Assembly: GCA_017517325.1 (NCBI GenBank)
Contig: JAFWZW010000002.1
Span: 1 to 53,578, forward strand
Reading direction: 5' to 3'
Length of the DNA stretch: 53,578 nt
Source of the DNA: Clostridia bacterium
GTDB lineage: Bacteria > Bacillota > Clostridia > Oscillospirales > SIG627
Shown: positions 35,613 to 53,578 of the stretch, one piece after another
Position numbering within the stretch: the first letter of the stretch is position 1
Layout: each line of letters begins with the position of its first letter
The notes under the pieces: model-generated
Databases searched by the model: none
What the model was told of the DNA's origin: nothing
The model's input: only the letters and a program-made list of their open reading frames with translations
Program-made: the position numbers and the translations under genes

Positions 35613-35619
35613 ATGTGGA

Positions 35620-37371
35620 TTAACCAATGAGAGTTGCGGTGCCTACGTTTACAAGCTCACCGGTGGATACCTGAGCGGAAATGGTAACCGTATAGAGACC
35701 GTTTGCAAACTTGTTGCGAGCGGAATCAAATTCCTTGCGGGACAAAGCGAGGCTATAGACATTTGCCTGTCTGGAGCGGTAAACCCCGGAAGCAACTTCG
35801 TTTCCAACCTGATCCTGAACTACGAGGAATATGTCGGAGATGGGGTAGTTGGACGTAACGATGGAAGCGGAAACTTCCTTCCAGGTCATTTCAGGCTTCC
35901 ACTTGGAAGCGGAGATGGAAATTTTTTCTACCGGTGCAAGATCCTTGAGGTTTTTCAGATAAGCGGTAACTTCAGCTTCACCGTAGGTTGCGTCGTATGC
36001 AGCGTGGTAGGTGGAATCAAGGGTGTTCCAGAAATCAGCATCTTCCTTGTGATATTCAGCAAAGGTGAAGGGCAGATAGTTGGTAGACTGAAGATTTGCG
36101 AAGGTGTAAACGCGGTTTACGCCGCCTTGAAGGTGGTAATTGACCCCTTCAATAACACCTCTGCCGCCCCAACCCTCGATCTGCTCAAAAACGGTAATGG
36201 TGCTTGCGTTAGGATCAATGGTGCCGTTGGGTTTTTTAACAACGTTAACGGATTTAACCATCATAGCGTGGCCCTTGCTTACAAGGCAGTCAGCGGGCTG
36301 AGCCTGTGCGTAGCACTTGTAAATTCCATCAGAACCGTGAGTCTTGTTCCAATCGCGGATTACGTGGTTGGTATCGTACTTAGTGGGGTTGTAATCGGAG
36401 GTTTCGCCGAAACGGTCGATGGTCAACGCATTGGGGTATGTAAAGAAGCCAACGGGAATGAACTCGTTGCGTACGTTCATATCTGCGGTCCAGATGAAGT
36501 AAGCAGAGTTGATCACGCGGCCCCAGCCCCAGTAAGAAGCAACGGAGCACTGATTGAAGAATGCACGCAGACCGGGGTGCTTAACTTCTTCACCAACTTC
36601 CACGGAGGGGGTGTTGGCATCGCCGTATAAGTAACCGCCGTTTTGAGCAATGGCTTCGGTCAGATAGAAGATGCCGGTTTCTTCATCGTAATATTCCAAC
36701 CAGCGGTAAAGGTTGCCGGCACCGGTGCTCTGGTAGGGAACACCGATGTAAAGCTCACCCTGTTCAATGGTTTTGTTCATATAGTCTTGGTGGGTTTCAC
36801 CAACGGCTGAGGTGGGGTAATTTTTCAGGGTAGCGTTGGGAGTCCAGGTGAAGGTCAACTGGAGCTCAAAGTAATCCAGAACGATTTTGCGAAGTTCATC
36901 GCTTGACATTTCATCGTTGGCAATGGGAATCGCTTTTAGGGCTGCTGTAGTCAGCTTCTTGGACTGAGCCAAAGAAAGGGGATAGGTGGAAATATCAGCC
37001 GCAAGAAAACCGTATTTCTTTGCAGGGGTAACAACAGCAGGAACCTTTACCTGAGAAAAGTCAAGATTCTCGCTATCATCAAAACCGTTGTAATCATACT
37101 GAGTGGAGGGCTTGTAAGAGGAAGGATTGGTGTAATTCCACTTCTTTTCAGGCTCTTGATAACGGGTTTCTTCTTCGGGCTTGGGCTGTACCGTTACCAA
37201 GGGAAGCTGAGGAGTGGGAGTGGGGAACGTGTTCTCGCTCTCCTTGGTTTCAGCATTGTTCTGTGTTTCTTCAACCTGGTCTACGGTGGTAGCAGGCTCT
37301 TCGTCCTTACCGCAAGCTACCAGAGTAAAGATCATAAGAATGGAAAGAAACAGTGCAATTGCTCTTTTCAT
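35620..37371 (-). CDS. CSG/GHVRM-family lipoprotein, most divergent member
   Basis: Secreted lipoprotein of 583 residues: signal peptide with lipobox LVAC (Cys20), then a long low-complexity linker of about 120 residues rich in Glu, Thr and Pro, then one family domain. In this domain the block AIPIANDEMSSDELRKI is at 147-163, GVPYQSTGAGNLYR at 210-223, the presumed Cys is 275 (FFNQCS) and His is 368 (KGHAMM). It is the least similar copy: NACSGG reads NQCSVA and GHVRM reads GHAMM, and the segment before Cys is lengthened by about 25 residues. The C-terminal NYPISDIFLVV block is at about 510-520. AAGGAG precedes the ATG. It has its own promoter and terminator. Confidence 0.9.
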   Translation of the reverse strand: MKRAIALFLSILMIFTLVACGKDEEPATTVDQVEETQNNAETKESENTFPTPTPQLPLVTVQPKPEEETRYQEPEKKWNYTNPSSYKPSTQYDYNGFDDSENLDFSQVKVPAVVTPAKKYGFLAADISTYPLSLAQSKKLTTAALKAIPIANDEMSSDELRKIVLDYFELQLTFTWTPNATLKNYPTSAVGETHQDYMNKTIEQGELYIGVPYQSTGAGNLYRWLEYYDEETGIFYLTEAIAQNGGYLYGDANTPSVEVGEEVKHPGLRAFFNQCSVASYWGWGRVINSAYFIWTADMNVRNEFIPVGFFTYPNALTIDRFGETSDYNPTKYDTNHVIRDWNKTHGSDGIYKCYAQAQPADCLVSKGHAMMVKSVNVVKKPNGTIDPNASTITVFEQIEGWGGRGVIEGVNYHLQGGVNRVYTFANLQSTNYLPFTFAEYHKEDADFWNTLDSTYHAAYDATYGEAEVTAYLKNLKDLAPVEKISISASKWKPEMTWKEVSASIVTSNYPISDIFLVVQDQVGNEVASGVYRSRQANVYSLALSRKEFDSARNKFANGLYTVTISAQVSTGELVNVGTATLIG

Positions 37372-37423
37372 AATAATCTCCTTTGATTTTTTTAGTGAAA
37401 GAAATATCCACTTTATCTATCTA

Positions 37424-37451
37424 ATTTTATCATATTTATATTGCTTTGAAA
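37424..37451 (-). promoter_or_regulatory. Promoter of the lipoprotein gene 35620-37371
   Basis: TTTCAA (37446-37451), 16-base spacer, TAAAAT (37424-37429) on the minus strand, with ATATGA before the -10. The same layout occurs before two other family lipoproteins. Confidence 0.5.
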
Positions 37452-37514
37452 ATTGACATTTTGATAGAAAAATTAAGCGATATTTTGGGTATTTTCACTT
37501 TTTTCACGAAACCT

Positions 37515-38840
37515 TCAGTTTTTTAGCGTTGTCGTCAATACGGTTGGCTTCTCACCTGTGGAAAGCTGGCAGGAAACCGAAACCTTGTGGTTGCCGTCGC
37601 AGTATTTTTTAAGTGAGTTCTCAAACACCATGCCGGAGAGCTCTACACTCATGACGGAAGCCCGAGTGCTTCTCTTGACGTATTCGTAAACCTCGGTGCC
37701 GTTTTCATCCGTAACGGTGAGGAATACGTCGGAAATGGCGTAGTTCGTTGTAAGGACTGCTTCCTTCAGCTGACTGACCGTAACGGTATCGCCGCTGATA
37801 CTCAAAGTAGCTGTGGAGGGCTCAACGGGATCGGTACCGATCAGTTCCCCAAAGGTAAAGGGGAGGTAACTGCTTGAGAATAATTTCTGAAAGCTGACCT
37901 TTACGTCAACACCGCCTTGAATGCTCATTTCAGAACCGTCAGATTGCTCAGCGGTGGACCATTTTGAGACCTGGTCACGGTAGCGCAAGTAGCTTTGGTT
38001 GGGATCAATGGCTCCGTTTGCATCCCGCACCACCGTGGGAGCTTCCGAACACATTCTCACGTGGCCTGCCGTGCCGGAATAATAAACCAATCCGTCGGCA
38101 GGGAGCATTTTTGCGTAGGATTCGTACATAACGTCTCTTCCGTTTTGCTGGCAGATATCAATAGTCGTCAAAGGATCAGGAGAACTTTTCAGGTAATCGT
38201 CCAGATCGTCACGGTATTGGTATGTTCCGACGGGGATAAAGCCGTTCTTTTTCACCATGGATTGGGTCCAGGTGTAATTGGCGGAATTGATCACGCGACC
38301 CCAGCCCCAGAAAGCACCTACCGAGCATTGGTTGCCGAACAGCTTTGGGTTGGCCTTGTAAAGAGAAACGGGCATAACGCCGGTGAGCGTATCGTAATCC
38401 TCCAAGACCCGATAAAGGTTACCCGTTCCTACGGTTACGTAAGGAATACCGCCGAAAACGCTGCCTTTTTCCAGCGTTACGGGCTTTCCCGAGCTTTCAA
38501 TGGTATAGCTGAAGCGGGAATCCGGAGTCCAGGAAAAGGTGAGCTGCAAGTAAAAGTAGTCCAGACAAAGCTGCCTGAGCTGGTCAGTGGTCATAGAGCT
38601 GTTGGCGATGGGGAGTGCGGCTAAAGCTTCGGGTGTAAGCGGGTCTGCAACCGTGGGGTAATCGTAAGTGTCAACCTCTTCTTTTGTCACCGTTTCAACC
38701 GAAGGGGTGTTTTCAACGGTTGTAATCACTTCTTTTGTTTTCGTTTCCTTTGGCTCTTCCTGAAGCTGACTTTCGCCTCCGCAGGAAACCAAGGATGCAA
38801 CCAGAGCGAAGACTAAGAGCATCAATGCGATTTTTTTCAT
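37515..38840 (-). CDS. CSG/GHVRM-family lipoprotein
   Basis: 441-residue lipoprotein. Signal peptide with lipobox LVSC, Cys20; a charged Glu/Lys/Thr linker to about residue 65; then one family domain. Visible blocks: ALPIANSSMTTDQLRQLC (75-92), GGIPYVTVGTGNLYR (130-144), NQCSVG with Cys172, PADGL (247-251), GHVRM with His260, then the AIDPNQSY turn and a RYRDQ end. The C-terminal domain has TNYAISDVFLTV. The sequence before the ribosome site (AAGGAGG) holds a promoter. No terminator is obvious after it. Confidence 0.92.
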   Translation of the reverse strand: MKKIALMLLVFALVASLVSCGGESQLQEEPKETKTKEVITTVENTPSVETVTKEEVDTYDYPTVADPLTPEALAALPIANSSMTTDQLRQLCLDYFYLQLTFSWTPDSRFSYTIESSGKPVTLEKGSVFGGIPYVTVGTGNLYRVLEDYDTLTGVMPVSLYKANPKLFGNQCSVGAFWGWGRVINSANYTWTQSMVKKNGFIPVGTYQYRDDLDDYLKSSPDPLTTIDICQQNGRDVMYESYAKMLPADGLVYYSGTAGHVRMCSEAPTVVRDANGAIDPNQSYLRYRDQVSKWSTAEQSDGSEMSIQGGVDVKVSFQKLFSSSYLPFTFGELIGTDPVEPSTATLSISGDTVTVSQLKEAVLTTNYAISDVFLTVTDENGTEVYEYVKRSTRASVMSVELSGMVFENSLKKYCDGNHKVSVSCQLSTGEKPTVLTTTLKN

Positions 38841-38870
38841 AGAGATGACCTCCTTGAAGTTGTTTTAATT

Positions 38871-38899
38871 ATTTTATCGTATTAGAAACAAATTGTAAA
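38871..38899 (-). promoter_or_regulatory. Promoter of the lipoprotein gene 37515-38840
   Basis: TTTACA (38894-38899), 17-base spacer, TAAAAT (38871-38876) on the minus strand, again with a CGA just before the -10. Confidence 0.6.
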
Positions 38900-38907
38900 T
38901 GGTTTTA

Positions 38908-38952: not shown

Positions 38953-38967
38953 ATTGTTTTTTATAAG

Positions 38968-40293
38968 TTAGTTTATAGAAATATTTCCGTTGTAAACGTT
39001 GATCAATTCACCGTTGTAAAGCTGAACGGAAACCTCCAGAATGCCGCCGTCCGTTGCAAAGTTGTGGATCAGGCCGCTGGGGAACGCGTCGTCGATCTTC
39101 TCTGCAAGATTGACGGAGTAGATGAAGAAGGTAGGACTTCTCAGATAACGGGAGGGAATCAGTACCTTTCCGCTTTCATCCTTCATAGTAAAGATAACGT
39201 CGGAAATGTTGTAGTTAGAGGTGATAACGGAATTTTTAAGCTCGTCGTAGGTGATACCGGTCTTTCCCTCGATGCCGCTTGCAGTGACGGTGGCCTTTTC
39301 TACGGGGTCAGTTCCGAGAAATTCCTTGAAGGTGAAGGGGAGATAGCTTCCTTCGTACAATTCAGCAAAGGAAACCTCAACGTCTACACCGCCTTGGGTA
39401 AAATAGACGGTACCGTCGGACTGCGTGCGTTTGTATTTTTCAGAGGTGTTGTAGCAGATCTGGTCGCAGTAGATAATGGTACTGCGCTGACCGTCAATGG
39501 TGCCGTCATCGTTACGTACAACGTTGGGCATTTCAACAACCATACGAACGTGACCGGTATTTACGATGCCGTCTGCAGGCTTCGTAGCGGCGTAGGATTC
39601 GTACATGATCTGCTCACTGTTATCTTTGATAACGGCTTTTGCATCATAGTTGCCTCTGTGGTTTGTTTCAAAGGTAGTGAAATCATTGGGGTACGTGTAA
39701 GGCCCAACGTTTACGTAGCCGTTACCCTGGGTCATATCCTTGGTATAACCGAATTTTACGGAATTGACCACACGGCTCCAAGCCGTGCAAACACCACCGG
39801 AGCAAGCGTTACCGAACCATCTTGCATTGCCCACAAAGGGGGTGATGGTCAGAACACCGGTTTCGGAGTTGTAGTAATTGGCAACGCGATAAAGGCTACC
39901 GGAGCCTGCGGTAACGTAGGGAAGGCCGGCGTAAAGAGTTCCTTTCTTCTCTACCTCTTCTACCTTTTGGCTTTCTACGGTGTAGGTGTAGGTCTCGTTG
40001 GGGGTATAGCAGAAGGAGCAGGCAAGGCGCATATAATCCACGCAAAGCTTGCGAAGCTCATCCTCGGACATACTTTCGTTGGCAATGGGAAGTGCCTTGA
40101 GCTTTTCGATCATAGAGGTATCCTCGATCACAAGCTCCTTGTTTTCCTCTTTTGTTTCCTTCTTTTCCTCGGTCTTTTTTGTCTCTTCTTTTGTTTCAAC
40201 TTCCGTTGTGGTAGCGGGAGGCTCGGTATTACCGCAGGCTACGATGGAAAGAAGCATTACGAAACAAAGAAGAAGGGCAAGATATTTTTTCAT
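38968..40293 (-). CDS. CSG/GHVRM-family lipoprotein
   Basis: 441-residue lipoprotein, Cys20 in IVAC, then an unusually repetitive Glu/Lys/Thr linker (EETKKTEEKKETKEE). One domain: ALPIANESMSEDELRKLC (67-84), AGLPYVTAGSGSLYR (122-136), NACSGG with Cys164, YESYAATKPADG (231-242), GHVRM with His248, and the usual late block SNYNISDVIFTM. The start has AAGGAG. It shares a promoter type with the two adjacent lipoprotein genes and has its own terminator. Confidence 0.92.
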   Translation of the reverse strand: MKKYLALLLCFVMLLSIVACGNTEPPATTTEVETKEETKKTEEKKETKEENKELVIEDTSMIEKLKALPIANESMSEDELRKLCVDYMRLACSFCYTPNETYTYTVESQKVEEVEKKGTLYAGLPYVTAGSGSLYRVANYYNSETGVLTITPFVGNARWFGNACSGGVCTAWSRVVNSVKFGYTKDMTQGNGYVNVGPYTYPNDFTTFETNHRGNYDAKAVIKDNSEQIMYESYAATKPADGIVNTGHVRMVVEMPNVVRNDDGTIDGQRSTIIYCDQICYNTSEKYKRTQSDGTVYFTQGGVDVEVSFAELYEGSYLPFTFKEFLGTDPVEKATVTASGIEGKTGITYDELKNSVITSNYNISDVIFTMKDESGKVLIPSRYLRSPTFFIYSVNLAEKIDDAFPSGLIHNFATDGGILEVSVQLYNGELINVYNGNISIN

Positions 40294-40468: not shown

Positions 40469-41791
40469 TTATGCAGTCAGAATTCCGGAGTATGCCGTAA
40501 CCATCTCTCCCGTTGAGATTTGGCAAAGGAGCGTTACGGTGTGGTCACCGCTGCCCGCTAACGCTTTGAGCTGATTTGTAATAGCGGAGATCATAACCTC
40601 CTTTTCCATATCCACGCTCTTTGTGAAAAAATTGGTCATTCTTCTGGGAAAATTGAGTTTTTCCGATCCGTCGGGAGCCGTAACCTTCAGGAATACGTCG
40701 GAAATGGCGTAATTGCAGGTGAGCGTGGTTGCCGTGAGCTGATCGATGGTAACGGTGGGGCTTTCGATACCGAGGGTTGCGTTGGAGGCTTCCACGGGAT
40801 CTGTCCCCAAAAACTCACCGAAGGTAAAGGGAATGTAATTGGTTTTAAATAACTCACTAAAGGAGATCTTAACGCGCACGCCGCCTTGAGCCTTGTAGGG
40901 GGTGCCGTCTGTTTGCTTGCGGTCGTGGTTGACCTCGTTTACGTATTTTACCTGATCGGAGTAAAAAAGAAAGCTCTTCTCTCCGTCAATGGTGCCGTCA
41001 TCATTTCGCATAACCGAGGGCTCGCCGGTCACCATTCTTACATGGCCGGGATGAACCAGACCGTCTGCAAGCTTTACCAGTGCGTAGGATTCAAACATGG
41101 TCTGCTCACCGTTGGCGGCGACAACGTCGGAAGCGGTGTATTTGTTGGGGCTTTCAGAACGTACCTCGTGAAAATTTTCAACGGTATCGGGATAGGTGTA
41201 AGGCCCCACCCGCAGACAGCCGTTGTGGTGAGTGAGAGACCATGTCCAGGCAAGATCAGCAGAATTGATCACCCTCTGCCATGCCCATCCAACGCCGCCG
41301 GAGCAGGCGTTGCCGAATCTCAGCCCTGCGTTTAAAAAGGCAGACATATCAATGGTGCCGGTGGCTTCGTCATAGTATTCCATAGCACGGTAAATATTGC
41401 CGGAGCCGGTACTGATATAGGGGATCCCGCCGTAAACGGTGCCGGGTTCACGGGTGATATTAAGGTCCTCGTGGGTAAAGGTCTGCTGGGGCATCCATGG
41501 AAATTCAAGAGAAAGGTGCAAAAAGTCAACGCAGATCTTTCGAAGCTCATCTGCTGACATAGAAGCGTTTGCAATGGGAATGGCGGCAAGCTTCTGCTTG
41601 GTGCTCTTATCCTCCACCGTGTAATTGTTGGGCTCGGCTGTGTGCTTCCACTTGTCATCCGGCATTCCGGTTTCAGTTTCGGAAGTAGAGGAGAAAACTT
41701 CCTGCGTTACGGTTTTATCGGCCGTTTCACTGCAGGAAACCGTGGAAAAAAGCAATAATATAGATAAAAGAATTAAAGAAAACCGTTTCAA
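40469..41791 (-). CDS. CSG/GHVRM-family lipoprotein (TTG start)
   Basis: 440-residue lipoprotein with lipobox TVSC. The TTG at 41791 is chosen over the ATG at 41812 for two reasons: AAAGGTAGG lies at good distance before it, and it places the lipobox Cys at residue 20, exactly as in the four other lipoprotein copies. One domain: AIPIANASMSADELRKIC at about 70-87, GGIPYISTGSGNIYR, NACSGG with Cys163, SYALVKLADG, GHVRM with His250, then CNYAISDVFLKVT. A shorter linker than its neighbours. Own promoter and terminator. Confidence 0.9.
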   Translation of the reverse strand: MKRFSLILLSILLLFSTVSCSETADKTVTQEVFSSTSETETGMPDDKWKHTAEPNNYTVEDKSTKQKLAAIPIANASMSADELRKICVDFLHLSLEFPWMPQQTFTHEDLNITREPGTVYGGIPYISTGSGNIYRAMEYYDEATGTIDMSAFLNAGLRFGNACSGGVGWAWQRVINSADLAWTWSLTHHNGCLRVGPYTYPDTVENFHEVRSESPNKYTASDVVAANGEQTMFESYALVKLADGLVHPGHVRMVTGEPSVMRNDDGTIDGEKSFLFYSDQVKYVNEVNHDRKQTDGTPYKAQGGVRVKISFSELFKTNYIPFTFGEFLGTDPVEASNATLGIESPTVTIDQLTATTLTCNYAISDVFLKVTAPDGSEKLNFPRRMTNFFTKSVDMEKEVMISAITNQLKALAGSGDHTVTLLCQISTGEMVTAYSGILTA

Positions 41792-41824
41792 AAAAAGAAA
41801 CCTACCTTTCATTTTTATGAATCT

Positions 41825-41940: not shown

Positions 41941-44900
41941 TTAAGCGTTGAAAGCGCCTTCGAAGGCCACCAGCTTGTCACCGTTGTAAAGCTGGCATTC
42001 GATCTTGAGCGTACCCATATAGGCTGCCATATCGTCGCAGGGGAGGATCTTGGCAAGCTCCATAGATTTGATGAAGAAGTCCATCGCTCTGTGGATCTTG
42101 GAGAATACCACCTTTCCGGTAGCGGAGGTGACGGTCACGAACACGTCGGAAATGGGGAAGCTGGCGGTCAGGGTCAGCCCCTTCAGCTCTTCCGCAGTCA
42201 GTTGGGCCTTATCGGTTCCCAAGGATACGGATCCAACGTCCACTTCCTTCTCGCCGATAAATTCAGCAAAGGTGTAGGGTACGTAGTTGGTGTCAAACAG
42301 CTCCTTGAAAGTGTATTTTACGTCAACGCCGCCCTGTGCAATATAGTGATCGCCGTTAGGAGTAAGGCGCAGGTGGTTGGGAGCGGTGGTGTAGCAGACC
42401 TGATCGCACATAAGCGTGTAGCTCTTTTCACCGTCAATAGTGCCGTCAGCATTTCTCACAACAGTGGGATATGCAGAGTTCATACGAACGTGGCCGCAGC
42501 AGGTAACACCGTCTGCGGGAAGCATTGCCGCATAGGATTCAAACATAGTCTGCTCGCCGTTTCTTTCAAGAATCAGGCGAATGTCACTTTCAGGATCGGG
42601 ATTCTTCTTTTTCTTGGTGAAGGAGGTGATCTTGTCGGAATAGGTGTAAGGACCTACGGGAAGGAAGCCGTTTGCCCATGTCATCGTGGGCGTATAGGCA
42701 AAGTTTGCGGAGTTGACCACGCGGGACCAGGAGGTTCCGGCGCCGCCGGAGCAAGCGTTACCGTAGAGACGTGCATTGTTTACACAATCCATAGAAGCAT
42801 CCAGCGTTGCGGTCTCTTCGTTATAGGCTTCTGCCATACGGTAAAGGTTACCGGAGCCAACGGTTACGTAAGGCAGACCGCCGTGTACGATTCCCTCGCG
42901 CAGAGAACGGGGCATCTGCTGGCTTCTTACCACGTAATCCACCTGCTTTGAAAGCTTGTGAGGGAAGGAAAGCTGCAGCTTCATATAATCCAGACAGATC
43001 TGACGGAGGCGGAAGTCTCTCATTCCGGGTTTCGCAATGGGAATAGCGGCAAGCTCCTTCTTCAGGTTTCTGCCTGCGGGAACGCGGGTAGCGTAGGAAT
43101 GCTTGGGGCTTACAAGCGTACCGGCAAATGCCCAGGCATTCTTCTTAATCTCACCGTTGTAAAGCTGGACGTCAACGTTTACCTTGTAGTTACCGTCGAA
43201 GAACTCAAGTCTTGCCATTTCTTTCAATGGAAGAACGGTAGAAAGCTTAATATCATAGGTAGCAAAGGCGGGGGTGCGGTATACACCGTCCAGTACCACT
43301 TTGCCGTAAGGATCGGTTACGGTGTAGAAGAAGTCAGACATGGGGTAGTTACAGGAGAGCACCACGTCTTCCAGCTCATTCACGTTGAAGACGGTTCTTC
43401 TGGGAGTATGTTTGATAACGGCCTTCTGAACCTTTGCTTCACCGGTGAATTCCTTGAAGGTGAAGGGGAGGTAACCGGTGTTGTAAAGGTCCTCGAAGGT
43501 GTACTTGATATTGACCGTACCTTCTGCAGAGTAGTATTTGCCGCTCTTCTGACGTCTTACGTGGTTGGGAGCGGTGGCAACCATACCCTGCTCGGAGCAG
43601 ATGGCGTAGCTCTTCTTTCCGTCAATGGTACCGTCTTCGTTTCTTACAACGTGGGAAAGTCCGGTAAACATACGAATGTGCCCGGGGTTGTTCAGACCGT
43701 CGCCGGGTTTTACCAGCGCATAGGATTCATACATAACCTGCTCACCGTTTTCGAGGCATACGGAGCGAGCGGTGTATTTCTGGGGATTGTGGAAGCTTTC
43801 GAGATCCTTGGGATACGTGTAAGGACCTACGGGAATAACACCGTTTGCTTGGGTGAATTGGTGGGTCCAGCCAAGCTTTGCAGAGGTGATACATCTTGCC
43901 CAGGAGGTGCTGACACCGCCGGAGCAGGCGTTACCGAATACTCTCTTGTTGCGGCCGAATTTGCTCATATCCACTTCGCCCGTCTTGGGATCGAAATGCT
44001 CAACCCAACGGTAAAGGCTGGCGGAGCCAACGTTCACGTAGGGGATACCTGCGTGGACGTGTTCCTTTTTCAGGTATACCTTATAGTTCTGTCTTTCAAC
44101 CCAATAGTTAAGGTCCTCCTTCAGCTTGAAGGGGAAGGAATTCTGGAGCTGCATAAAGTCAACGCAGATCTTGCGCAGCTCGTCGGGGGTCATGGATTCC
44201 TTGGCAATGGGGATCGCCTTCAGCTTTGCGGGGAGATCCAGATCCTCGGGCTCAAGCTCGGTGGCAACGCTGTCGGGGCAAAGGGTCACGGTAAAGCCCT
44301 TCCAGGTCTTGATGCGCGTGCCGTTGAAAAGCTGAAATTCAATTGCCAGATAGTTGGAGCCGTTTTCAAATTGCTTCAGCTCGTCGATCTTCAGGATTTC
44401 CTTGAATACCGCCTTGTACTTGTGGTGAGTGGGGTAGCGGTAAACGTCGCTGTAAATGATGTTTCCGTCTACGTCCTTTACGGTAATGAAGGCATCGGAA
44501 ATGGGGTAGTTTGCGGTCATAACGACCTTCTTCAGATCCTCGGCACGGCAGGTCTTGTAAAGAAGGTCGTTGGTTCTCATAATGGCCTTCTGATACTTTG
44601 CTTCGCCGGTGAATTCCTTGAAGGTGAAGGGAATATAGTGCTTTTCAAAGAGGGTCTTGAAGTCAACCTTGATATCAACGCCGCCCTGAACGTATACGGG
44701 GGTGCCGTCTTCCTGAAGAACGTCGGTGTGATAGGTATAGCTCTTGGTGCCGTCTTCGTTTACCTGAACGTCGGTTTGATAGGGGGTGGCAACCTGATCC
44801 ATATAAAGAATGTAGCTTTCCTCACCGTTGATCTCGCCGTTTTCATCACGCACAACGTGAACGTCGGAAACCATTCTTACGTGGCCTCTGCTGTGAACGC

Positions 44901-45507
44901 CGTCGGCAGGCTGCAGGCAGGCGTAGGATTCATACATCACGTCTCTGCCGTTTTCAAGGCCGATGTTGTGCGCGGTGTAATCCTTTTCTCTCTTGGGGTC
45001 TTCCTTAAGGGTCAGCCCGCTCTTGATAAAGAGGGGGAGCTCCTTCATATAGGTGTAAGGTCCTACGTTTACGTAACCCATCAACTGGGTCATACCGGAG
45101 GTGTAGGTCATTTTGGCGGAGGATACGCATCTTGCCCAGGCAATGCAGGCGGCGCCGGTGCAGGCGTTACCGATGAGTCTGGGGTCGGATTTTAACTGGG
45201 AAATATCGAAAACGCCCGTTTCTTCATCGTAGAATTCCATTACCCGATAAAGGCTTCCGGAGGCAAGATTTACGTAGGGAAGACCGGCGTAGACGGTATC
45301 GGTGGAGAGCTTCACGGGGCGCTTTGCGCTCTTGATGGTATATTCATAGTCTTCGCTGGGAACCCAGGGGAAGGTCAGCTGCAGTCTCATAAAATTAAGA
45401 CAAGCTTTACGCATCTCCGCGGGGGTACTGTCGGGTGTGATTTTCGGCATCATTGCATTGAATGCTTCCTTGGTAAAGGGCTTTTCTACCTTGGGATAAT
45501 TTGCCAT
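41941..45507 (-). CDS. Three-domain CSG/GHVRM-family protein, no signal peptide
   Basis: 1188 residues holding three family domains in tandem: about 1-425, 426-815 and 816-1188. Candidate dyads are Cys116/His209, Cys528/His610 and Cys919/His1006. Domain 1 has NACTGAA instead of NACSGG. Each starts with an (A)IPIAK-type block and SMTPDELRKIC-like helix and ends with a TANYPISDAF or CNYPMSDFF-type beta-sandwich. ATG at 45507 has AAGGAG six bases upstream; the protein begins MANYPKVEK, with no signal peptide, unlike its lipoprotein neighbours. A reading back to 45594 covers the leader and lacks a start. Upstream lie a hairpin, a weak promoter and direct repeats. Confidence 0.92.
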   Translation of the reverse strand: MANYPKVEKPFTKEAFNAMMPKITPDSTPAEMRKACLNFMRLQLTFPWVPSEDYEYTIKSAKRPVKLSTDTVYAGLPYVNLASGSLYRVMEFYDEETGVFDISQLKSDPRLIGNACTGAACIAWARCVSSAKMTYTSGMTQLMGYVNVGPYTYMKELPLFIKSGLTLKEDPKREKDYTAHNIGLENGRDVMYESYACLQPADGVHSRGHVRMVSDVHVVRDENGEINGEESYILYMDQVATPYQTDVQVNEDGTKSYTYHTDVLQEDGTPVYVQGGVDIKVDFKTLFEKHYIPFTFKEFTGEAKYQKAIMRTNDLLYKTCRAEDLKKVVMTANYPISDAFITVKDVDGNIIYSDVYRYPTHHKYKAVFKEILKIDELKQFENGSNYLAIEFQLFNGTRIKTWKGFTVTLCPDSVATELEPEDLDLPAKLKAIPIAKESMTPDELRKICVDFMQLQNSFPFKLKEDLNYWVERQNYKVYLKKEHVHAGIPYVNVGSASLYRWVEHFDPKTGEVDMSKFGRNKRVFGNACSGGVSTSWARCITSAKLGWTHQFTQANGVIPVGPYTYPKDLESFHNPQKYTARSVCLENGEQVMYESYALVKPGDGLNNPGHIRMFTGLSHVVRNEDGTIDGKKSYAICSEQGMVATAPNHVRRQKSGKYYSAEGTVNIKYTFEDLYNTGYLPFTFKEFTGEAKVQKAVIKHTPRRTVFNVNELEDVVLSCNYPMSDFFYTVTDPYGKVVLDGVYRTPAFATYDIKLSTVLPLKEMARLEFFDGNYKVNVDVQLYNGEIKKNAWAFAGTLVSPKHSYATRVPAGRNLKKELAAIPIAKPGMRDFRLRQICLDYMKLQLSFPHKLSKQVDYVVRSQQMPRSLREGIVHGGLPYVTVGSGNLYRMAEAYNEETATLDASMDCVNNARLYGNACSGGAGTSWSRVVNSANFAYTPTMTWANGFLPVGPYTYSDKITSFTKKKKNPDPESDIRLILERNGEQTMFESYAAMLPADGVTCCGHVRMNSAYPTVVRNADGTIDGEKSYTLMCDQVCYTTAPNHLRLTPNGDHYIAQGGVDVKYTFKELFDTNYVPYTFAEFIGEKEVDVGSVSLGTDKAQLTAEELKGLTLTASFPISDVFVTVTSATGKVVFSKIHRAMDFFIKSMELAKILPCDDMAAYMGTLKIECQLYNGDKLVAFEGAFNA

Positions 45508-46015: not shown

Positions 46016-46891
46016 TCAGAGTCGTTCAAAGAGCTTTTCTTTTTGGGTGTTGATCAAAAGGCGCTCTCCGAAAAAGGCGCAGCACTCCACCTCTTCGTTG
46101 GCAAAGGGTGAGTCGGAAAGATCCTCGAAAAAGGCGTACTCGCGCTTTTCAAGATCGATCACGTTCATACCGTTGGGGTGGATCTCTTTTCCCGCACCGA
46201 ACATATACCAGATTTGTCCGTCCTTCACCGTGCCGCCTTGTGTATGAAGAATGTTGCAGGGGAGATCGTACTGATCAAAGATATCCTTTGGATAAAGGGT
46301 AACGTCTCCCGCGAGAGGGTCGGGAAGGCGGAATTTTGTAAGGGTGTATACGTTATCGGGCTTTGTAAACTCTCGTTTGGATCGGTGCTTGGAGGCAAGC
46401 ATATAATAGAAGCCATTGTCCGTGTCCACCAGGGAAGCGGGCCAGCCCCAGCCGGGCACGTGATAAGGGGTAGTCTCAAGGCCGTCGTTTTTGTAGAAAA
46501 TGCGCTGGATGGTTTCGGCTTTGTAGGCTCCGTTTTCCTTTGTGATCCTTTCTACAGCACAGTATGAAATATACCCGTTTTCATCGTATTCACCGCTGTT
46601 TCCGGCCGTTATGTACATCAAAGGGATTTCATCTCCCGAAAGCTTTGGGCCGAATACCGCATCGTTTGCGTGGTTGGCGTAGCGCTTATCGGGTACCCCG
46701 TCGTTGAAAGACCCCAGCTTCAATACGGAGATGGGCTTTTTTTCCTTCGTGTTCAGATCATATACACCGCAGATCCCGGTGTGAAACAGAACGAAGCCAA
46801 GGCCTTCGTGTATGGCAAAGCCCTGAACGCTTCGTCTTACACCCACGTATTCCAAGGTGGGGTTTTCAAATTCCATAAACAGCTTATACAT
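46016..46891 (-). CDS. Beta-propeller-like protein, unknown function
   Basis: A 291-residue protein, no signal peptide. Strand-rich repeats such as GFVLFHTGICGVYDL, PLMYITAGNSGEYDENG, GFYYMLASKHRSKRE and GQIWYMFGAGKE suggest a beta-propeller, but no named family is recognised. It overlaps the FAD oxidoreductase by eight bases, so the two are expressed together. It is the last gene of an operon that starts with a SGNH hydrolase and faces an AraC regulator. Role in metabolising a substrate handled by the oxidoreductase is only a guess. Confidence 0.65.
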   Translation of the reverse strand: MYKLFMEFENPTLEYVGVRRSVQGFAIHEGLGFVLFHTGICGVYDLNTKEKKPISVLKLGSFNDGVPDKRYANHANDAVFGPKLSGDEIPLMYITAGNSGEYDENGYISYCAVERITKENGAYKAETIQRIFYKNDGLETTPYHVPGWGWPASLVDTDNGFYYMLASKHRSKREFTKPDNVYTLTKFRLPDPLAGDVTLYPKDIFDQYDLPCNILHTQGGTVKDGQIWYMFGAGKEIHPNGMNVIDLEKREYAFFEDLSDSPFANEEVECCAFFGERLLINTQKEKLFERL

Positions 46892-48260
46892 AAAGCAAAA
46901 CTCCCTGTTCCTGAAGTTTTTCGCGCAGGATCTTCACGTCAAGTTCTCTTGTATCCGTTTCGCTTTCGGAGCACAAGGCGGCGGCGGTACCGGCGGCTTG
47001 CCCCATTGCCATACAGGGGGGCATTACCCGAACGGCACCTGCCGCTTCGCTTTCTGCGGAAATACAGCGCCCTGCCATAAGAAGGTTTGAAAGCCCCTTG
47101 GCAACCAGGCAGCCGTAGGGAATACCGTAATATTTGTTTTCGGGGATGGTGATGTATTCATTGCTTGCAGGGCCGAATCTGCCGTGTACGTCAACGGAAT
47201 TGGCGGCGATCATGACGGAATCCTCGGGTACGTTGCAGTTTAACAGATCGTCAAGCACAAGGGTCTTCATTCCGTGAATATGGCGGGTCTCACGGATACC
47301 TAGGGTACTGCCCGATTGAAGGAGCTTTGCGTTTTTACAGCCGGGCACGTATTTTTTTAAGAAGGCGAAGATCTCATCCACCTGCTCGCGGCCGATCATC
47401 TCGCCTTCTGTAAGGCTTTGGGAAAGACTTCCGTCAATGCCCATAATGCGGGAGGTGTTGATGCTCCATTCGTCCTCGTCAACCCCGCGAAACAGACCAA
47501 TGGAAACACGGTTCAGGGACCAATCGCCCGCCTCCTTTGCCTTGGAGACCCACCAGTGCATAGAGCGGTAATTGACCCCGTCCTTGCGGTAAAAGTTGTC
47601 GCGGTTGGCTTCGATATCCGCATCTACCTTGGCGCTGTCTACTCCGCCGATCCTGAAGAACATAGTAGCGGGCTGTATTCTTCCGTTGCCATTTCCAAGG
47701 GTGTAGGGAACACCGGCGGCAACGGCACAGTCTCCGTCACCGGTGCAATCGATCACGATCTTGGGCTTTATCGCACAGAGCCCTTCTTTTTTTGCCAGCA
47801 CCAATTTGCTGACCGTTCCGTTCTCTACCTCTGCGTCCACGAAGGAGGTGTGGTAAAGCACACGCACGCCCGCTTCCTTCAGCATACGGTCTGCAATCAG
47901 CTTCATGGCTTCTGCTTTGAAGGGGGTCACGTGGATATGTCCTGCGGTAATATAAGAGGTAAAGGCTGAAGATGCTTCGATCTTCGAGGGGTGAAGAGCA
48001 CCGCCCACGGCGATGAGTCTTTCCACGATCTCTTCAAACAGACCGCGGATCAGCATGGTATTTCCGCCGCTGTCGTAGCAGGTCATAAAAGGGGCTACAA
48101 GCCCTGCGGTAGCCATACCGCCACAGAAGCTTCCTTTTTCAATAAGCAGCGTGTCAACCCCTTGTCTTGCGGAAGCGATGGCGGCGCAAAAACCTGCAGG
48201 TCCACCGCCCAGCACGACTACGTCTGCGTTTTCAACGACCAATTCTTTCTGATAGATCAT
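46884..48260 (-). CDS. FAD-dependent oxidoreductase (FAD_oxidored family)
   Basis: A 458-residue flavoprotein. The Rossmann motif is VVVLGGGPAGFCAAIASARQ near residue 15, followed by LIEKGSFCGGMAT and the ligand PFMTCYDSGGNTMLIRG; CTGDGDCAVAAGVPY and GRCISAESEAAGAVRV complete the family (PF12831) layout. Typical members of this family in gut Clostridia act on unknown small molecules and stand near AraC regulators. The start has GAGG; it lies 12 bases after the SGNH hydrolase gene. Confidence 0.9.
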   Translation of the reverse strand: MIYQKELVVENADVVVLGGGPAGFCAAIASARQGVDTLLIEKGSFCGGMATAGLVAPFMTCYDSGGNTMLIRGLFEEIVERLIAVGGALHPSKIEASSAFTSYITAGHIHVTPFKAEAMKLIADRMLKEAGVRVLYHTSFVDAEVENGTVSKLVLAKKEGLCAIKPKIVIDCTGDGDCAVAAGVPYTLGNGNGRIQPATMFFRIGGVDSAKVDADIEANRDNFYRKDGVNYRSMHWWVSKAKEAGDWSLNRVSIGLFRGVDEDEWSINTSRIMGIDGSLSQSLTEGEMIGREQVDEIFAFLKKYVPGCKNAKLLQSGSTLGIRETRHIHGMKTLVLDDLLNCNVPEDSVMIAANSVDVHGRFGPASNEYITIPENKYYGIPYGCLVAKGLSNLLMAGRCISAESEAAGAVRVMPPCMAMGQAAGTAAALCSESETDTRELDVKILREKLQEQGVLLYV

Positions 48261-48272
48261 TTTAAACCTCGG

Positions 48273-48899
48273 TTAAATATAGTTCTTCAATTCATCGGCA
48301 ACCTTGTGCCCCAATGCCGCAAAGGCTTCGTGGGTCAGGTGGCAAGAATCTGTATACTGATCGCTGTCCCAATCCTTCATAAAATCGCAGATATCGTGAA
48401 CGGGAACTTGGTTTTCTTCCATCACTTCTTTGGCAATGGCGTTGTATTCTTTTATGGTTTCGGTAGTTCTGGGATTATTTCCTTGGCTGCCGTTTGGATT
48501 CATAGGAGAGGTCGTGGCAAAAACCAGCTTTGCGTTGGGGAAGAAAAGATGTAACAGATCCACGATGATCTGCAGATTCTTTCTGTATTCATTGGGTGTG
48601 GTCAAGGCGAAAGGGTGCCCGTTCCAATGGGCGGCGTCCCAATGTCCGCAGTTAAAATGGACTACGTTTACCAGCTCGGGCTTGTCAAAAAAGCCCGCCC
48701 ATCTTTTCATATTGATGATTACGTATTGGGTGCATCTGCAGTTTTGAGTAAAGAAAAAGGTTTCGGCAACGTCTGCAAGGTCATCTTTGGTGGTTTGGCA
48801 ATAGCCCTTGCGAATTGAATCTCCAATAAGAAAAATATTGGGTTTTGTTTCGCTGCATTGAAATCGTACTTCGGAGGCTCCGTCTTCTACCCAGATCAT
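48273..48899 (-). CDS. SGNH/GDSL-type hydrolase
   Basis: A 208-residue esterase/acetyl hydrolase of the SGNH superfamily without signal peptide. Blocks: IFLIGDSIRKGYC (Gly-Asp-Ser), VVHFNCGHWD, VFATTSPMN and DSCHLTHEAF with the Asp-x-x-His of block V. It probably removes acyl groups from a sugar or similar substrate. First gene of an operon with the FAD oxidoreductase and the propeller protein, divergent from the AraC regulator. Confidence 0.9.
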   Translation of the reverse strand: MIWVEDGASEVRFQCSETKPNIFLIGDSIRKGYCQTTKDDLADVAETFFFTQNCRCTQYVIINMKRWAGFFDKPELVNVVHFNCGHWDAAHWNGHPFALTTPNEYRKNLQIIVDLLHLFFPNAKLVFATTSPMNPNGSQGNNPRTTETIKEYNAIAKEVMEENQVPVHDICDFMKDWDSDQYTDSCHLTHEAFAALGHKVADELKNYI

Positions 48900-48941
48900 A
48901 AGGTTTCCTTTCTTTGACTCTTGACAAGAATCATTTTGTTA

Positions 48942-48972
48942 TTTATAATTGTACCACTCAAAAATGAACAAA
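48942..48972 (-). promoter_or_regulatory. Promoter of the SGNH hydrolase operon with AraC half-site
   Basis: TTGTTC (48966-48971), 18-base spacer, TATAAA (48942-48947) on the minus strand. The -35 overlaps AAATGAACAAA (plus view), one base different from the core repeat before the three-domain gene. A second half-site at the right distance is not clear here. Confidence 0.4.
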
Positions 48973-49007
48973 GAAATGCCGAAAAGTGATAATTTCTTAT
49001 GCTTTTG

Positions 49008-49016
49008 TGATATAGT
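49008..49016 (+). promoter_or_regulatory. Extended -10 promoter of the AraC gene, leaderless start
   Basis: TGA-TATAGT fits an extended -10 (TGnTATAAT). The expected RNA start at 49022-49024 falls on the ATG at 49023, and no ribosome site lies between, so the mRNA may be leaderless. Confidence 0.5.
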
Positions 49017-49022
49017 TTGAAA

Positions 49023-49940
49023 ATGAAAGACAGAATCGAAAAATACGTGCGTTCCGGTCATTACACCGTGCTTTTTGAATCGGATCGATCCGGTACGTAC
49101 CAAAACAACCAAAAGGGCTGGGTTGATCATCTTTTGAGTGAAAGAATCATCTTTTCTCACAGAATCACTTCGCCCGACCGACCCGATCTTTTTGAGCGTC
49201 TCCACTACCACGATTATTACGAGCTTGTTGTTTCCAAAACAGAGCTTGGGGTGGAGTTTTGTGCCAATGGATGGGAAACGATGATCGCAAGGGGAAACGC
49301 CGTTCTCACGAGACCCGGCTTCCCTCATATGTTTAAGATTGGGGAAGGTTTCCCTTACGACCGATACGTTCTGTATTTTAAAAATCCCGCGGATATCGTT
49401 GATGATCCCCTGATCACGGATTTTATTACCCGCGGTAAAGAGGATTCCGCCGTCTTCACCGGCTGCGGTGAGGAACTGCTTCGCAGGATGAAGGAAGCAG
49501 AGCTTTTATTGCAACAGAATGCCTCCCCCTATTCCTTCAGTGAGGCAAAGCTTGAGATCTGCCGAGCCTTTCTCTCTTTATCCAAAAGCGGTTGTTCCGA
49601 AGCATCCCCCGCGACGCCCGAACAGCCCCGTTCCGTCAGAGAGATCAAGAATTATATGGACGAGCATTTTCTTGAGATCCATCGGGTGGAACAGCTCTGC
49701 GAGGTGTTTTTCTATAGCAGGGAGCATATTTCCCGGATCTTCAAAAAGCATTATAATACCCCCATCCACGAATACCTTTTGTGCCTGAAGTTGATTCATT
49801 GCTGTTCTTTGTTGAAAAAATGTGAAACAGTGGAATCCGCTGCCCGTCAATCGGGCTTTTCCAATATGTCAAGCTTTGTAAAGCTGTTTAAAAAGCACAT
49901 CGGTTGCACGCCCTCCGAATATAAGAGAAACAGTCAATAA
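49023..49940 (+). CDS. AraC family transcriptional regulator
   Basis: 305-residue regulator. The N-terminal half is a cupin (RLHYHDYYELVVSK, then NAVLTRPGFPHMFKIGEG), as in AraC sensors of sugars or other small ligands. The C-terminal half has two helix-turn-helix units: HRVEQLCEVFFYSREHISRIF and SAARQSGFSNMSSFVKLFKKHI, with the IGCTPSEYK finish. It faces the SGNH-FAD operon, so it is the likely activator of it. An in-frame TTG at 49017 is possible but the ATG at 49023 is preferred because the -10 places the RNA start there. Confidence 0.9.
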   Translation: MKDRIEKYVRSGHYTVLFESDRSGTYQNNQKGWVDHLLSERIIFSHRITSPDRPDLFERLHYHDYYELVVSKTELGVEFCANGWETMIARGNAVLTRPGFPHMFKIGEGFPYDRYVLYFKNPADIVDDPLITDFITRGKEDSAVFTGCGEELLRRMKEAELLLQQNASPYSFSEAKLEICRAFLSLSKSGCSEASPATPEQPRSVREIKNYMDEHFLEIHRVEQLCEVFFYSREHISRIFKKHYNTPIHEYLLCLKLIHCCSLLKKCETVESAARQSGFSNMSSFVKLFKKHIGCTPSEYKRNSQ

Positions 49941-49978: not shown

Positions 49979-49984
49979 AGATTT

Positions 49985-51337
49985 TTATTTTACGGGCATC
50001 AGTTTTCCCGTGTAGAATACGGGTCTGGTACCGTTACCAAGCTGAACGGAAAGCTCAAGGGTGTGGTTTCCGTCAGCGTATTTGGTAAGAGCTGCAAGGG
50101 GAATGTTACCGGAGAATTGGAAATAATATTTCATAAAGCTTTCAATGGTCTTGCGGTAATTGAGAACGTAATTACCTTCTGCATCTTTAATCTTAAAGTA
50201 AATATCGGTTATGATGTAGTTTGCAGTGAGGGTTGCGCCGTTTACGTCAAAGGGCGTAACGGTCTCACCCTTGTGAGTGAAGATAACTTCGGCATCCTCC
50301 ACGGGATCGGTTCCCAAAAACTCTGCAAAGGTAAAGGGAATGTAGTTGGTGTTATAGAGTTCGTTAAAGGAATATTTCCAGTTGTTGCCCCCGGCAATGT
50401 GATATTTGGTGCCGTCTGCCTGGGTGCGCTGATACTTTTCGGGTACGGTGTTATAGCAGATCTGGTCACTGCATACAAGAAAGCTCTTATCACCGTCAAT
50501 GGTACCGTCTTCTTTTCTTACTACGATGGGCTCTTCCGTGATCATTCTTACGTGGCCGGTATTTACGGTGCCGTCTGCCTTGTGAGCGGCGGCGTAGGAT
50601 TCAAACATTACCTGTTTGCCGTTTTTCTTACAGATTTCGGGAGCGCCGTAATCCGAGGGATCTTTTCCGATGCTGGTAAGCGTCAGGTCGTATTCGTAAG
50701 GGCCAACCTTCAAGAAGCCGTTGGCGTGGGTCATACCCCAGGTCCATTGAAATTTGGTAACGGAGTTGATAGCTCTTGCCCAACCATAAGAAGCACCGCC
50801 GGAGCAGGCGTTTCCAAGAAGCTTCGGATTGGCCAAAAAGGGAGTCATATCTAAAATGCCGGTATTGGAATCGTAGTGGTCCATCAAGCGGTAAAGGTTA
50901 CCGTAACCGATCGTGATGTAAGGAATACCGCCGGTGAGTTCGCCCTCGGGCAGAACTCTCTTGAAGTTCTGGCTTTCCACTACGTAGTGATAGTCCTGAT
51001 TGGGAACGTAGGTAAAGGTCATGGAAAGGTTAAAGAAGTCAACGCAGATTTGGCGAAGCTGCTCGGAGGACATGGAGTTGTTGGCAATGGGGATTGCATT
51101 GATGTCATCCCAAGTGAGGGGATCGTTTACCGCGTTATAAACCACGGGCTCTTTTTCTTCCGTCTTTGTTTCTTCAATTGTAGCGGTTTCTTTCTTTTCT
51201 TCCGTTTCTTTTTCGTTATCCTTCTTTTCATCCGTTGTCTGAACTGCGTCTATGGTAGCGGGGGTTTCTTCTTTGGCGCAGGAAACGAAAGGAAAGAGCA
51301 TTACAAGGCATAAAATAAGTGCGAGTATTCTTTTCAT
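49985..51337 (-). CDS. CSG/GHVRM-family lipoprotein
   Basis: 450-residue lipoprotein, Cys20 in FVSC, then a Glu/Lys/Thr linker to about residue 65. Domain: NDPLTWDDINAIPIANNSMS (71-90), GGIPYITIGYGNLYR (136-150), NACSGG with Cys178, then WARAINS, ESYAAAHKADG (246-256), GHVRM with His262. The C-terminal beta part has TANYIITDIYFKI. ATG at 51337 is chosen (AAGGAG upstream, Cys20 rule); the stretch to 51571 is another gene in a different frame. It begins 16 bases after the stop of the multi-domain gene at 51354 with no terminator between, so the two are probably one transcript. Confidence 0.92.
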   Translation of the reverse strand: MKRILALILCLVMLFPFVSCAKEETPATIDAVQTTDEKKDNEKETEEKKETATIEETKTEEKEPVVYNAVNDPLTWDDINAIPIANNSMSSEQLRQICVDFFNLSMTFTYVPNQDYHYVVESQNFKRVLPEGELTGGIPYITIGYGNLYRLMDHYDSNTGILDMTPFLANPKLLGNACSGGASYGWARAINSVTKFQWTWGMTHANGFLKVGPYEYDLTLTSIGKDPSDYGAPEICKKNGKQVMFESYAAAHKADGTVNTGHVRMITEEPIVVRKEDGTIDGDKSFLVCSDQICYNTVPEKYQRTQADGTKYHIAGGNNWKYSFNELYNTNYIPFTFAEFLGTDPVEDAEVIFTHKGETVTPFDVNGATLTANYIITDIYFKIKDAEGNYVLNYRKTIESFMKYYFQFSGNIPLAALTKYADGNHTLELSVQLGNGTRPVFYTGKLMPVK

Positions 51338-51353
51338 GTTTTTCTCCTTAAAT

Positions 51354-53578
51354 TTATTTTTTAAGAATGCTGTCGTATGCCAATTCCTTGGTGCCGTAAT
51401 AGAGCTGAGTTTCAATGCGGATCTTGTTGGTTCCGGCTTCTTCGAAAGGAGCCAGTTCTTCGGCGGTGAGGAAATCGCTAACGGGGAGCTGGTAGGTAGA
51501 GAAGGTAATTCTTCTGTGCACTTTGCGGAAAAGCTCGTTGCCGTCCTTGTCGCAAACGGTAACGAATGCATCAGAAATGGGGTAGTTGGTGGTGAATACC
51601 ACGTCGCAAATCTGCTTGGCGGAGATCTCTTCCAGGTTGATGTTGGCTGAAACCTCGGGCAGTTGTACTTCCGATTCGCCCAAAAATTCCTTGAAGGTCA
51701 CAGGGATGTAGCCGTCCTTGAAGAGCTCCGCAAAGGTAACCTTTACGTCAATGCCTCCCTGTACGAAATAGTGGTCGCCGTCGGGGGTCATCTGTGCGTG
51801 CTTTCTTCCGTAGCCGGTGGTGTAACAGCCCTGGTCACAGTAGAGCATCCAGCTTTTTTCTCCGTCAATGGAGCCGTCTTCGTTTCTTACTACCGTTGCC
51901 GTGGATGCCGCAAGACGAATGTGGCCTTGGTTATTCAGGCCGTCTGCAGGCTGGATCAGTGCGTAGGATTCGAACATCACCTGCTCACCGTTTTCAGCAC
52001 AGACCATCTTTGTTGTGTAGAAATCGGGTCTGTCGGATTTTCTGGTGAAGCGGGGGAAATCGTTAGGGTACTTGTAAGGGCCAACGTTCAGATATCCGTT
52101 GTACTGACACATACCCGCGCACCAAGTAAGATATGCAGAGGAGATGCAGCGTGCCCAGGAGGTGCAGGCACCGCCGGAGCAAGCGTTGCCGAAATAACGC
52201 TTGTGCATTTTCTTGTATTCGGTCATATCCAGAACACCGGTTTCGGGATCGTAAAATTCCATTGCGCGGTAAAGGCTGCCGGAGCCAACGGTGATATAGG
52301 GAAGACCGCCGTAGAGAACGCCCTGTTCCAGTTTGCATTCGTGCTTCTGGCTGTCAACGACGTACTCGTAATCCTCGCTGGGGGTAAACTGGAAGGAGAG
52401 CTGAAGCTTCATATAATCAAGACAAATCTTTCTCAATTCTTCGGGCTTCATTCCGGGCTTTGCAAGGGGGATCGCCGCCAGCTTTTCGGGCATAGAGCGG
52501 TCGTATACCTTTCTTGCGATTTTGCCGGGCATCAGTCTTCCTGCATAAGCGCGCACGATCTCGCCGTTCATTAGCTGTGCCTTGATCTCAAAGCTGTTTT
52601 CGCCGCTGGCTTCGAAGGGCTTCAGCTCATCCAGGGGAATGTAAGGTGCCAGGGGCATTTCATAGAGATCCAGTTTTTCGGGGCCCGTAACGGTTCTTCT
52701 TGCTACGTGGGAATAAAGCACCTTGCCCAGAGGATCCTTAACCTCGGTAAAGAAATCGGAGATCAGATAGTTGGAGCGGATCTCAACCTGCTTCAGTTCT
52801 TCAACGGAAAGAGATGTTTGGGTGGTGTTGGCGTTGATCTTGGCTTTCTGTACCACAGCCTCGCCTAAAAATTCCTTGAAGGTGAAGGGAATGTAACCGG
52901 TGCGGAAGAGCTCGGCAAAGCTGATCTTTACGTCGACGCCTCCGTGTACGCGGTAAAGATCACCCTCGTCGGTAAAGCGAACGTGATGGAATGCAGATTC
53001 GTAGCAGACCTGGTCGCAATAAAGAAGAAAGCTTCTTTCCCCGTCAATGGTGCCGTCGGGCAGACGGGAAACGGTTGCTACCGAGGAAGCCATACGAATG
53101 TGACCGGGGGAGAGCAGACCGTCCGCGGGCTTAACTAGGGCATAGGATTCGAACATCACCTGCTCGCCGTTTTCCTTGCAAACGTTTTTGGGAGTGTATC
53201 GGGTGGTAGGCTGAATATCAGTACCGCGGATGGGGCGGATAAAGCGCTTCAGGTGCTTGGTATATTTGTAAGGACCAACGTTGACGAAGCCGTTGCCTTG
53301 GGTCATATCAAAGGTCCATCCAAGGCGAGCGGAAGAAATACAGCGGGACCAAGCTATGGAAGCCGCACCGGAGCAAGCGTTACCGAAGATCTGCTTGTTT
53401 TTGCCAAGCTCGGAAAGATCCAGAATGCCGGTTTCGGGATCGTAATATTCTGCAACACGGTACAGGTTACCCGTACCGATGGTTACGTAGGGGAGACCGC
53501 CGTGAAGAGATTTTCCCTTCAGGTTTACGGTATAATTCTGAGAATCAACGACGTATTCATAGTCCTTACTGGGGAGCC
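51354..53578 (-). CDS. Multi-domain CSG/GHVRM-family protein (partial, N-terminus outside window)
   Basis: The reading frame stays open to the window edge, giving about 740 residues: the rest of one family domain (from the DYEYVV block after its first helix) and one complete domain. First domain: FGNACSGAA, then a GHIRMASSVATV block and a beta part RSNYLISDFF. Second: AIPLAKPGMKPEELRKICLD, GGLPYITVGSGSLYR, FGNACSGGACTSW, PADGLNNQGHIRLAAS, NYPISDAFVTV. It reads GHIRL, a small variation of GHVRM. The pattern matches the three-domain gene at 41941 and probably also lacks a signal peptide, but the start is not visible. A TTG-free gap of 16 bases separates it from the downstream lipoprotein gene. 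Confidence 0.88.
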   Translation of the reverse strand, partial: LPSKDYEYVVDSQNYTVNLKGKSLHGGLPYVTIGTGNLYRVAEYYDPETGILDLSELGKNKQIFGNACSGAASIAWSRCISSARLGWTFDMTQGNGFVNVGPYKYTKHLKRFIRPIRGTDIQPTTRYTPKNVCKENGEQVMFESYALVKPADGLLSPGHIRMASSVATVSRLPDGTIDGERSFLLYCDQVCYESAFHHVRFTDEGDLYRVHGGVDVKISFAELFRTGYIPFTFKEFLGEAVVQKAKINANTTQTSLSVEELKQVEIRSNYLISDFFTEVKDPLGKVLYSHVARRTVTGPEKLDLYEMPLAPYIPLDELKPFEASGENSFEIKAQLMNGEIVRAYAGRLMPGKIARKVYDRSMPEKLAAIPLAKPGMKPEELRKICLDYMKLQLSFQFTPSEDYEYVVDSQKHECKLEQGVLYGGLPYITVGSGSLYRAMEFYDPETGVLDMTEYKKMHKRYFGNACSGGACTSWARCISSAYLTWCAGMCQYNGYLNVGPYKYPNDFPRFTRKSDRPDFYTTKMVCAENGEQVMFESYALIQPADGLNNQGHIRLAASTATVVRNEDGSIDGEKSWMLYCDQGCYTTGYGRKHAQMTPDGDHYFVQGGIDVKVTFAELFKDGYIPVTFKEFLGESEVQLPEVSANINLEEISAKQICDVVFTTNYPISDAFVTVCDKDGNELFRKVHRRITFSTYQLPVSDFLTAEELAPFEEAGTNKIRIETQLYYGTKELAYDSILKK

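Follow-up and report, generated by a model that had tools for sequence, protein, structure and literature searches.

What is the domain that recurs along this contig, and what do so many copies of it do? The window is the entire contig C5 (JAFWZW010000002.1 of Clostridia bacterium, assembly GCA_017517325.1; 53,578 nucleotides), part of a draft genome (G000) of 1.74 Mb that is 81% complete. A sequence-only reading had described an expanded protein family there, with eleven domain copies and one remnant, had recognized no established family, and had suggested wall remodelling or toxin/effector-like proteins. From its active-site pattern, predicted fold, and bridging sequences, we conclude that the domain is almost certainly a divergent, insertion-rich member of the NlpC/P60 superfamily. 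A large uncharacterised family of uncultured Clostridia is placed in this way within a known enzyme superfamily.

Identity of the repeated domain

We searched 926 open reading frames (ORFs) from the window and 25 fetched loci with an iterated profile, which was built partly from the same window rows that it then matched. It found eleven domains in eight window genes, all on the minus strand and all where the sequence-only reading had placed them, and the single remnant was located as well (domain start fused to the last ~50 domain residues). Two gene starts could be refined, to 51337 for the 49985 gene and to 45507 for the 41941 gene.

1..768, minus strand: signal-less copy, one domain, running on into contig C13
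35620..37371, minus strand: lipoprotein, one domain (35626-36957); profile and signal pattern
37515..38840, minus strand: lipoprotein, one domain (37524-38645); profile and signal pattern
38968..40293, minus strand: lipoprotein, one domain (38980-40119); profile and signal pattern
40469..41812, minus strand: lipoprotein, one domain (40475-41611); profile, active-site pattern, predicted fold
41941..45507, minus strand: signal-less protein, three domains (41953-43068, 43141-44235, 44293-45480); profile, no hydrophobic segment
45753..45962, minus strand: remnant, domain start joined to domain end by internal deletion
49985..51337, minus strand: lipoprotein, one domain (49997-51124), 16 bases after the 51354 gene
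51354..53578, minus strand: tandem protein, two domains seen (51363-52502, 52530-53573), the first domain cut by the contig edge and the 5' end past the contig

When the 40469 protein alone was used to search, the remaining window copies matched at E 9e-106 to 1e-57, and the 35620 copy matched in three pieces (best E 1e-24). Identity to the 40469 domain was 33-45% across 21 other domains, far beyond chance.

The invariant blocks quoted by the sequence-only reading are real. The alignment holds 84 full-length domains, left from 97 non-duplicate rows once 13 partial ones were removed; residue numbers follow ORF 40472-41827 and are five higher than protein numbering. Pro84 and Arg96 are invariant (84/84), Gly134, Pro136, and Tyr137 are each found in 83, Cys175 in 82, His262 in 83, and Asp255 in all 84. 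The third polar position is Glu in 41 domains, Asp in 32, His in 9, Ala in 1, and Gly in 1; it is directly followed by Gln292 (82/84), and the serving residue could be either of the two. The putative oxyanion Tyr (83/84) lies within GxPY, ahead of the Cys. A GD-like motif keeps its Asp in 84/84, preceded by Ala in 75 and by Gly in only 9. In the 40469 gene, the corresponding codons were worked out from the same ORF:

41417-41419, minus strand: predicted catalytic Tyr
41303-41305, minus strand: predicted catalytic Cys
41063-41065, minus strand: predicted Asp of the GD-like motif
41042-41044, minus strand: predicted catalytic His
40952-40957, minus strand: predicted Asp-Gln pair

The NlpC/P60 core consists of a Cys, a His, a polar residue, and an oxyanion Tyr (PMC3573020), and its GD motif sits on beta-1 (PMC10318531). 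In the numbering of the predicted model, Cys103 opens helix 103-111, strand 184-187 follows the GD-like motif, and His190 opens strand 190-194. The domain thus has the marks of NlpC/P60: a Cys at a helix start, a His at the start of the second strand, a polar residue at the third position, where the superfamily has Gln, Asn, His, Glu, or Asp, and the predicted fold. The core takes up ~120 of 271 residues, ~150 extra residues wrap it, and an Ig-like domain follows. The catalytic part was predicted alone because the Ig-like tail filled the match list of the full-length model. The predicted catalytic part fits the NlpC/P60 fold, and its closest structures after re-alignment are wall hydrolases.

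Bridging sequences connect the family to named enzymes. With the family profile, relatives came up first in further families of the same order (among those scanned, L085, L086, and L087 carry SLH domains and L084 carries Big_2) and then among class-level proteins. One intermediate, L106, passes Pfam NLPC_P60 (26.4 bits vs a cut-off of 23). By hhalign, the family matched four intermediates at 98.5% (E 2.5e-15) and the intermediates matched 23 NlpC/P60 rows at 96.5% (E 7e-10), with 0.3% for the control comparison of the Ig-like tail with NlpC/P60. Domains matched by this tail stand alongside NLPC_P60 in L111, Peptidase_M23 in L107, and a sub-threshold C39 match in L112.

Several results weigh against this placement. 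None of 22 members matched PF00877 above its gathering cut-off, three of the four intermediates (L101, L105, L110) had no NLPC_P60 match, and the direct hhalign comparison of the family with NlpC/P60 was weak (5.7%, E 0.0067). Foldseek alone gave nothing significant for the catalytic part (NlpC/P60 entry 3h41 at E 1.2, rank 4); most top rows were unrelated, and only re-alignment of the Foldseek candidates set NlpC/P60 entries apart.

The family is not filed under PF00877 itself. Pfam hmmscan gave only weak sub-threshold rows and no credible match for the 8 window proteins or 22 domains, NCBIfam no credible family match (its lipoprotein models touch mainly the signal region) and no NlpC/P60 model on the intermediates, and PHROGs no credible match for 22 catalytic parts. 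CHAP (PF05257) was likewise above its gathering cut-off in 0/22 members, the best being 21.2 bits (a G006 copy) and 18.8 (L089) against 26. PDB sequence searches returned chance matches only, including a profile match to serine hydroxymethyltransferase (E 0.53) that we rejected. Among the papers listed in a literature search on NlpC, no title or abstract start was about this family. The sequence-only reading was right that the domain has no curated family of its own, and partly wrong in that the domain's kind can be named.

Cell location, copy number, and ancestry

Most copies look anchored on the cell surface, and some appear to stay inside. We assigned location classes to 97 genus proteins with a permissive lipobox pattern, which matched 67 single-domain proteins (two L093 dockerin proteins among them are probably false matches). 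Six single-domain proteins had a signal without lipobox, four were undecided, five had a cut N-terminus, and 13 were signal-less (7 tandem and 6 single). The other two tandem proteins among the 97 are L051:5819-11137, with a signal peptide, and L039, whose start follows a ribosome site and shows no signal by eye. A stricter pattern gave 58 lipoboxes among 110 proteins, relatives included. At the 13 signal-less starts, ribosome sites are clear in three genomes (G000, G003, G005), and some genes of G004 and G006 have weaker ones; in the 41941 gene, AAAGGAGA stands directly ahead of the ATG. The left-edge copy (1-768), which joins contig C13 by an exact 132-base overlap, nests among lipoproteins, yet starts without a signal. 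The "paired architectures" of the sequence-only reading have substance, as lipoprotein-like copies adjoin signal-less tandem copies.

Exported proteins tend to avoid cysteine. Signal-less domains contain 2.1% Cys vs 1.4% in 77 other genus proteins (Mann-Whitney P = 2.7e-5, kinship ignored), in the same direction in 5/5 genomes with both classes, although only slightly and from one domain in G004 (1.87 vs 1.74%). They are also richer in Lys, Arg, and Glu and poorer in Ser and Thr. The higher Cys content fits a cytoplasmic location, and the signal-less copies are quite likely intracellular. Speaking against a tidy two-location scheme, the Cys difference was computed without correction for relatedness, a signal peptide is present on the three-domain L051 protein, and there are six single-domain copies among the signal-less ones; because of the latter two points, tandem and signal-less are not equivalent.

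The anchors vary. G001, a sister species, has two family genes with a C-terminal Dockerin_1 where the array position is shared (L093:135-3930), and probably a third such copy (contig C71). Other G001 copies have a lipobox (L098), and this genome has 18 dockerin and 4 cohesin matches. One catalytic domain thus occurs under different anchors (lipid, dockerin, SLH), apparently in two compartments. The L051 protein is 1773 residues long; it has a sub-threshold CHAP match, and ~500 residues at its N-terminus match nothing in Pfam. In G001 and G002, secreted copies (L094, L096) share ~340-400 N-terminal residues that look alike by eye, with no Pfam match in the two proteins scanned.

The expansion proposed by the sequence-only reading is genuine. 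Fetched stretches of the window's genome hold ~26 genes with 31 domains, each gene counted once; several are located at contig ends, and the two matched pieces of L041:4547-11785 were taken as one gene. That gene encodes a 2413-residue protein with a hydrophobic N-terminal segment and a very diverged domain copy at its end, and two related ORFs (378 and 381 residues, 54% identical) lie beside it. A single-protein query matched 8/39 genomes: 7/7 of the genus (with 7 to 36 matches per genome, counting fragments), 1/16 others of the family, and 0/16 others of the order. The profile matched 13/296 genomes in the order, including the 7 of the genus, 17/391 class-wide (mostly partial matches), and 2/398 in a phylum sample, the last two counts including the window's own genome. 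Relatives include the metagenome-assembled genomes RGIG5579 (sheep colon), Oscillospiraceae SIG619, and SRR873610_bin.94; from the origin of RGIG5579, the genus probably lives in ruminant guts.

In a tree of 117 domains (quick method), sequences cluster strongly by genome, with 29 changes vs 74.6 on average after shuffling. Even so, proteins with three and with two domains pair domain by domain between G000 and G005, and the 51354 protein corresponds in this way to signal-less L060. Because the tandem proteins of G006 and G003 fall with their own genome's copies, tandem forms probably have more than one origin. Recent pairs are under purifying selection: dN/dS was 0.09-0.26 in nine hand-picked close pairs, two of them unreliable with dS near or above 1.9.

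Function and its alternatives

The whole is best explained, in our moderately confident view, by a cysteine hydrolase of wall peptides that works in two locations and whose copies were tuned by duplication. The active-site pattern, predicted fold, export classes, expansion, and purifying selection were obtained by computation. We infer amide hydrolysis, peptidoglycan peptides as target, action on the own or a foreign wall, and a division of labor between compartments. The Cys, activated by the His and an Asp, Glu, or His, would attack an amide bond in peptidoglycan stem peptides, a predicted role that is checkable with a single Cys mutant. Lipoprotein copies would act outside the cell, on the own wall and probably also on fragments shed from the walls of other gut bacteria. 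The signal-less copies, of which about half have two or three tandem domains, would remain cytoplasmic and act on wall peptides that are imported or recycled. Tandem duplication followed by divergence would have adapted individual copies to different peptides.

From superfamily membership, peptidoglycan is somewhat favored as the main substrate; against it, the Pfam scan found no wall-binding domain on the window copies. A bolder version, which we offer only tentatively, is a genus-specific two-compartment peptide-processing system, in which a diversified surface array breaks down the walls of neighboring gut bacteria by scavenging or predation, dedicated intracellular and often tandem versions finish the imported fragments, and the signal-less form has arisen several times.

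We consider it unlikely that the copies are autolysins only, replacing ordinary NlpC/P60 enzymes in growth and division of the own wall, with copy number due to drift and redundancy. PF00877 and PF05257 matches are absent from the window's own genome, and PF00877 from G003, G005, and G006 as well (G001, G002, and G004 have one each). However, 14/29 genomes searched, including those 3 of 6 other genus members, lack a PF00877 match, so the lack is not special; relatives outside the genus may share it, and at 81% completeness it may mean little. Moreover, ~26 genes in 1.74 Mb seems far above need, purifying selection persists in recent pairs, and the intracellular copies are left unexplained.

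A non-wall substrate is a similarly improbable account, with NlpC/P60-fold amidases, deamidases, or transferases whose targets would be proteins (dietary, host, or bacterial) or other amides. The superfamily includes such activities (PMC10318531), the extra residues wrapping the core would suit it, and a dockerin-borne NlpC/P60 tandem of R. flavefaciens showed no detectable protease activity (PMC3573020). Against this, the closest structures are wall hydrolases, and the Ig-like tail is found alongside such hydrolases. A non-catalytic role, with surface or decoy proteins using the fold for binding, is highly improbable: although two domains, each the first of three in its tandem protein (L039, L058), have lost the Cys to Ser, and that of L058 also the His and third residue, Cys is kept in 82/84 and His in 83/84 despite wide divergence.

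Genomic neighborhood and known systems

The array adjoins a gene that we take to be RlmH-like (window 33845-34339) in G000, G001, G004, and G006, with a DUF1015 gene between them in G000 and G004 and three other ORFs in G006. At the other end stands a YunB gene in G000; G004 and G006 (50-51%) and G002 (28%) have homologues. A long ORF of 913-992 residues adjoins the YunB end in G000, G006, G004, and G002. One kind comprises L038:9051-11864 (G000; no Pfam match) and L048:5612-8392 (G006), 47% identical; seemingly another comprises L054:1857-4595 and L061:877-3852 (G004, G002; 74%). Genes of other kinds also lie within the array:

46016..49940: four-gene non-family island with an unassigned protein, FAD_oxidored, GDSL lipase (-), and AraC-type regulator (+)

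The remnant flanks this island on one side and the remnant's closest match on the other, forming a direct repeat of the family 3' end (45751-45915 vs 49983-50147, 82% identical), as if the island had inserted into the array.

Apart from shared chromosomal neighbors, no non-family gene recurs beside the copies (most neighbors are unannotated, and PADLOC was not run), and tblastn found no match for one copy in phages or for intermediate L105 in plasmids. On these results, we rejected toxin/effector arrays; of the two guesses in the sequence-only reading, wall remodelling is the better, and nothing was found pointing to a toxin. Invertible promoters were also rejected, as 35000-53578 holds no inverted repeat of at least 18 bases (seed 12).

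Among known systems, the NlpC/P60 DL-endopeptidases and autolysins (PF00877; CwlO, RipB, Acd24020) are only 13-18% identical to the family in alignments, and the family differs from them in its large insertions, its own N-terminal block, its Ig-like tail, and the lack of a direct Pfam match. CHAP hydrolases (PF05257) are a weaker comparison, with sub-threshold Pfam matches only; the CHAP profile comparison rested on 2 of 7 CHAP sequences and is no fair test against NlpC/P60. RflaF_05439 of the rumen bacterium Ruminococcus flavefaciens (DUF2272) likewise has tandem NlpC/P60 modules (two) and a dockerin, and its strain 17 homologue has a Cys-to-Ser change in the first repeat, as in the first domains of L039 and L058; one ORF is described for it, whereas our family has tens of copies (PMC3573020). 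Its structure is cited as PDB 4EYZ (PMC10318531) and as 4EZY in a legend of PMC3573020; neither 4EYZ nor DUF2272 was among the structure rows listed or the sequence matches, which excludes nothing. Trichomonas vaginalis likewise has an expanded NlpC/P60 set in a mucosal microbe, although there nine genes were acquired by a protozoan and enzymes were tested (PMC10461829), whereas our family is described by computation. If foreign peptidoglycan is the substrate, the family would be a bacterial counterpart of the Trichomonas expansion.

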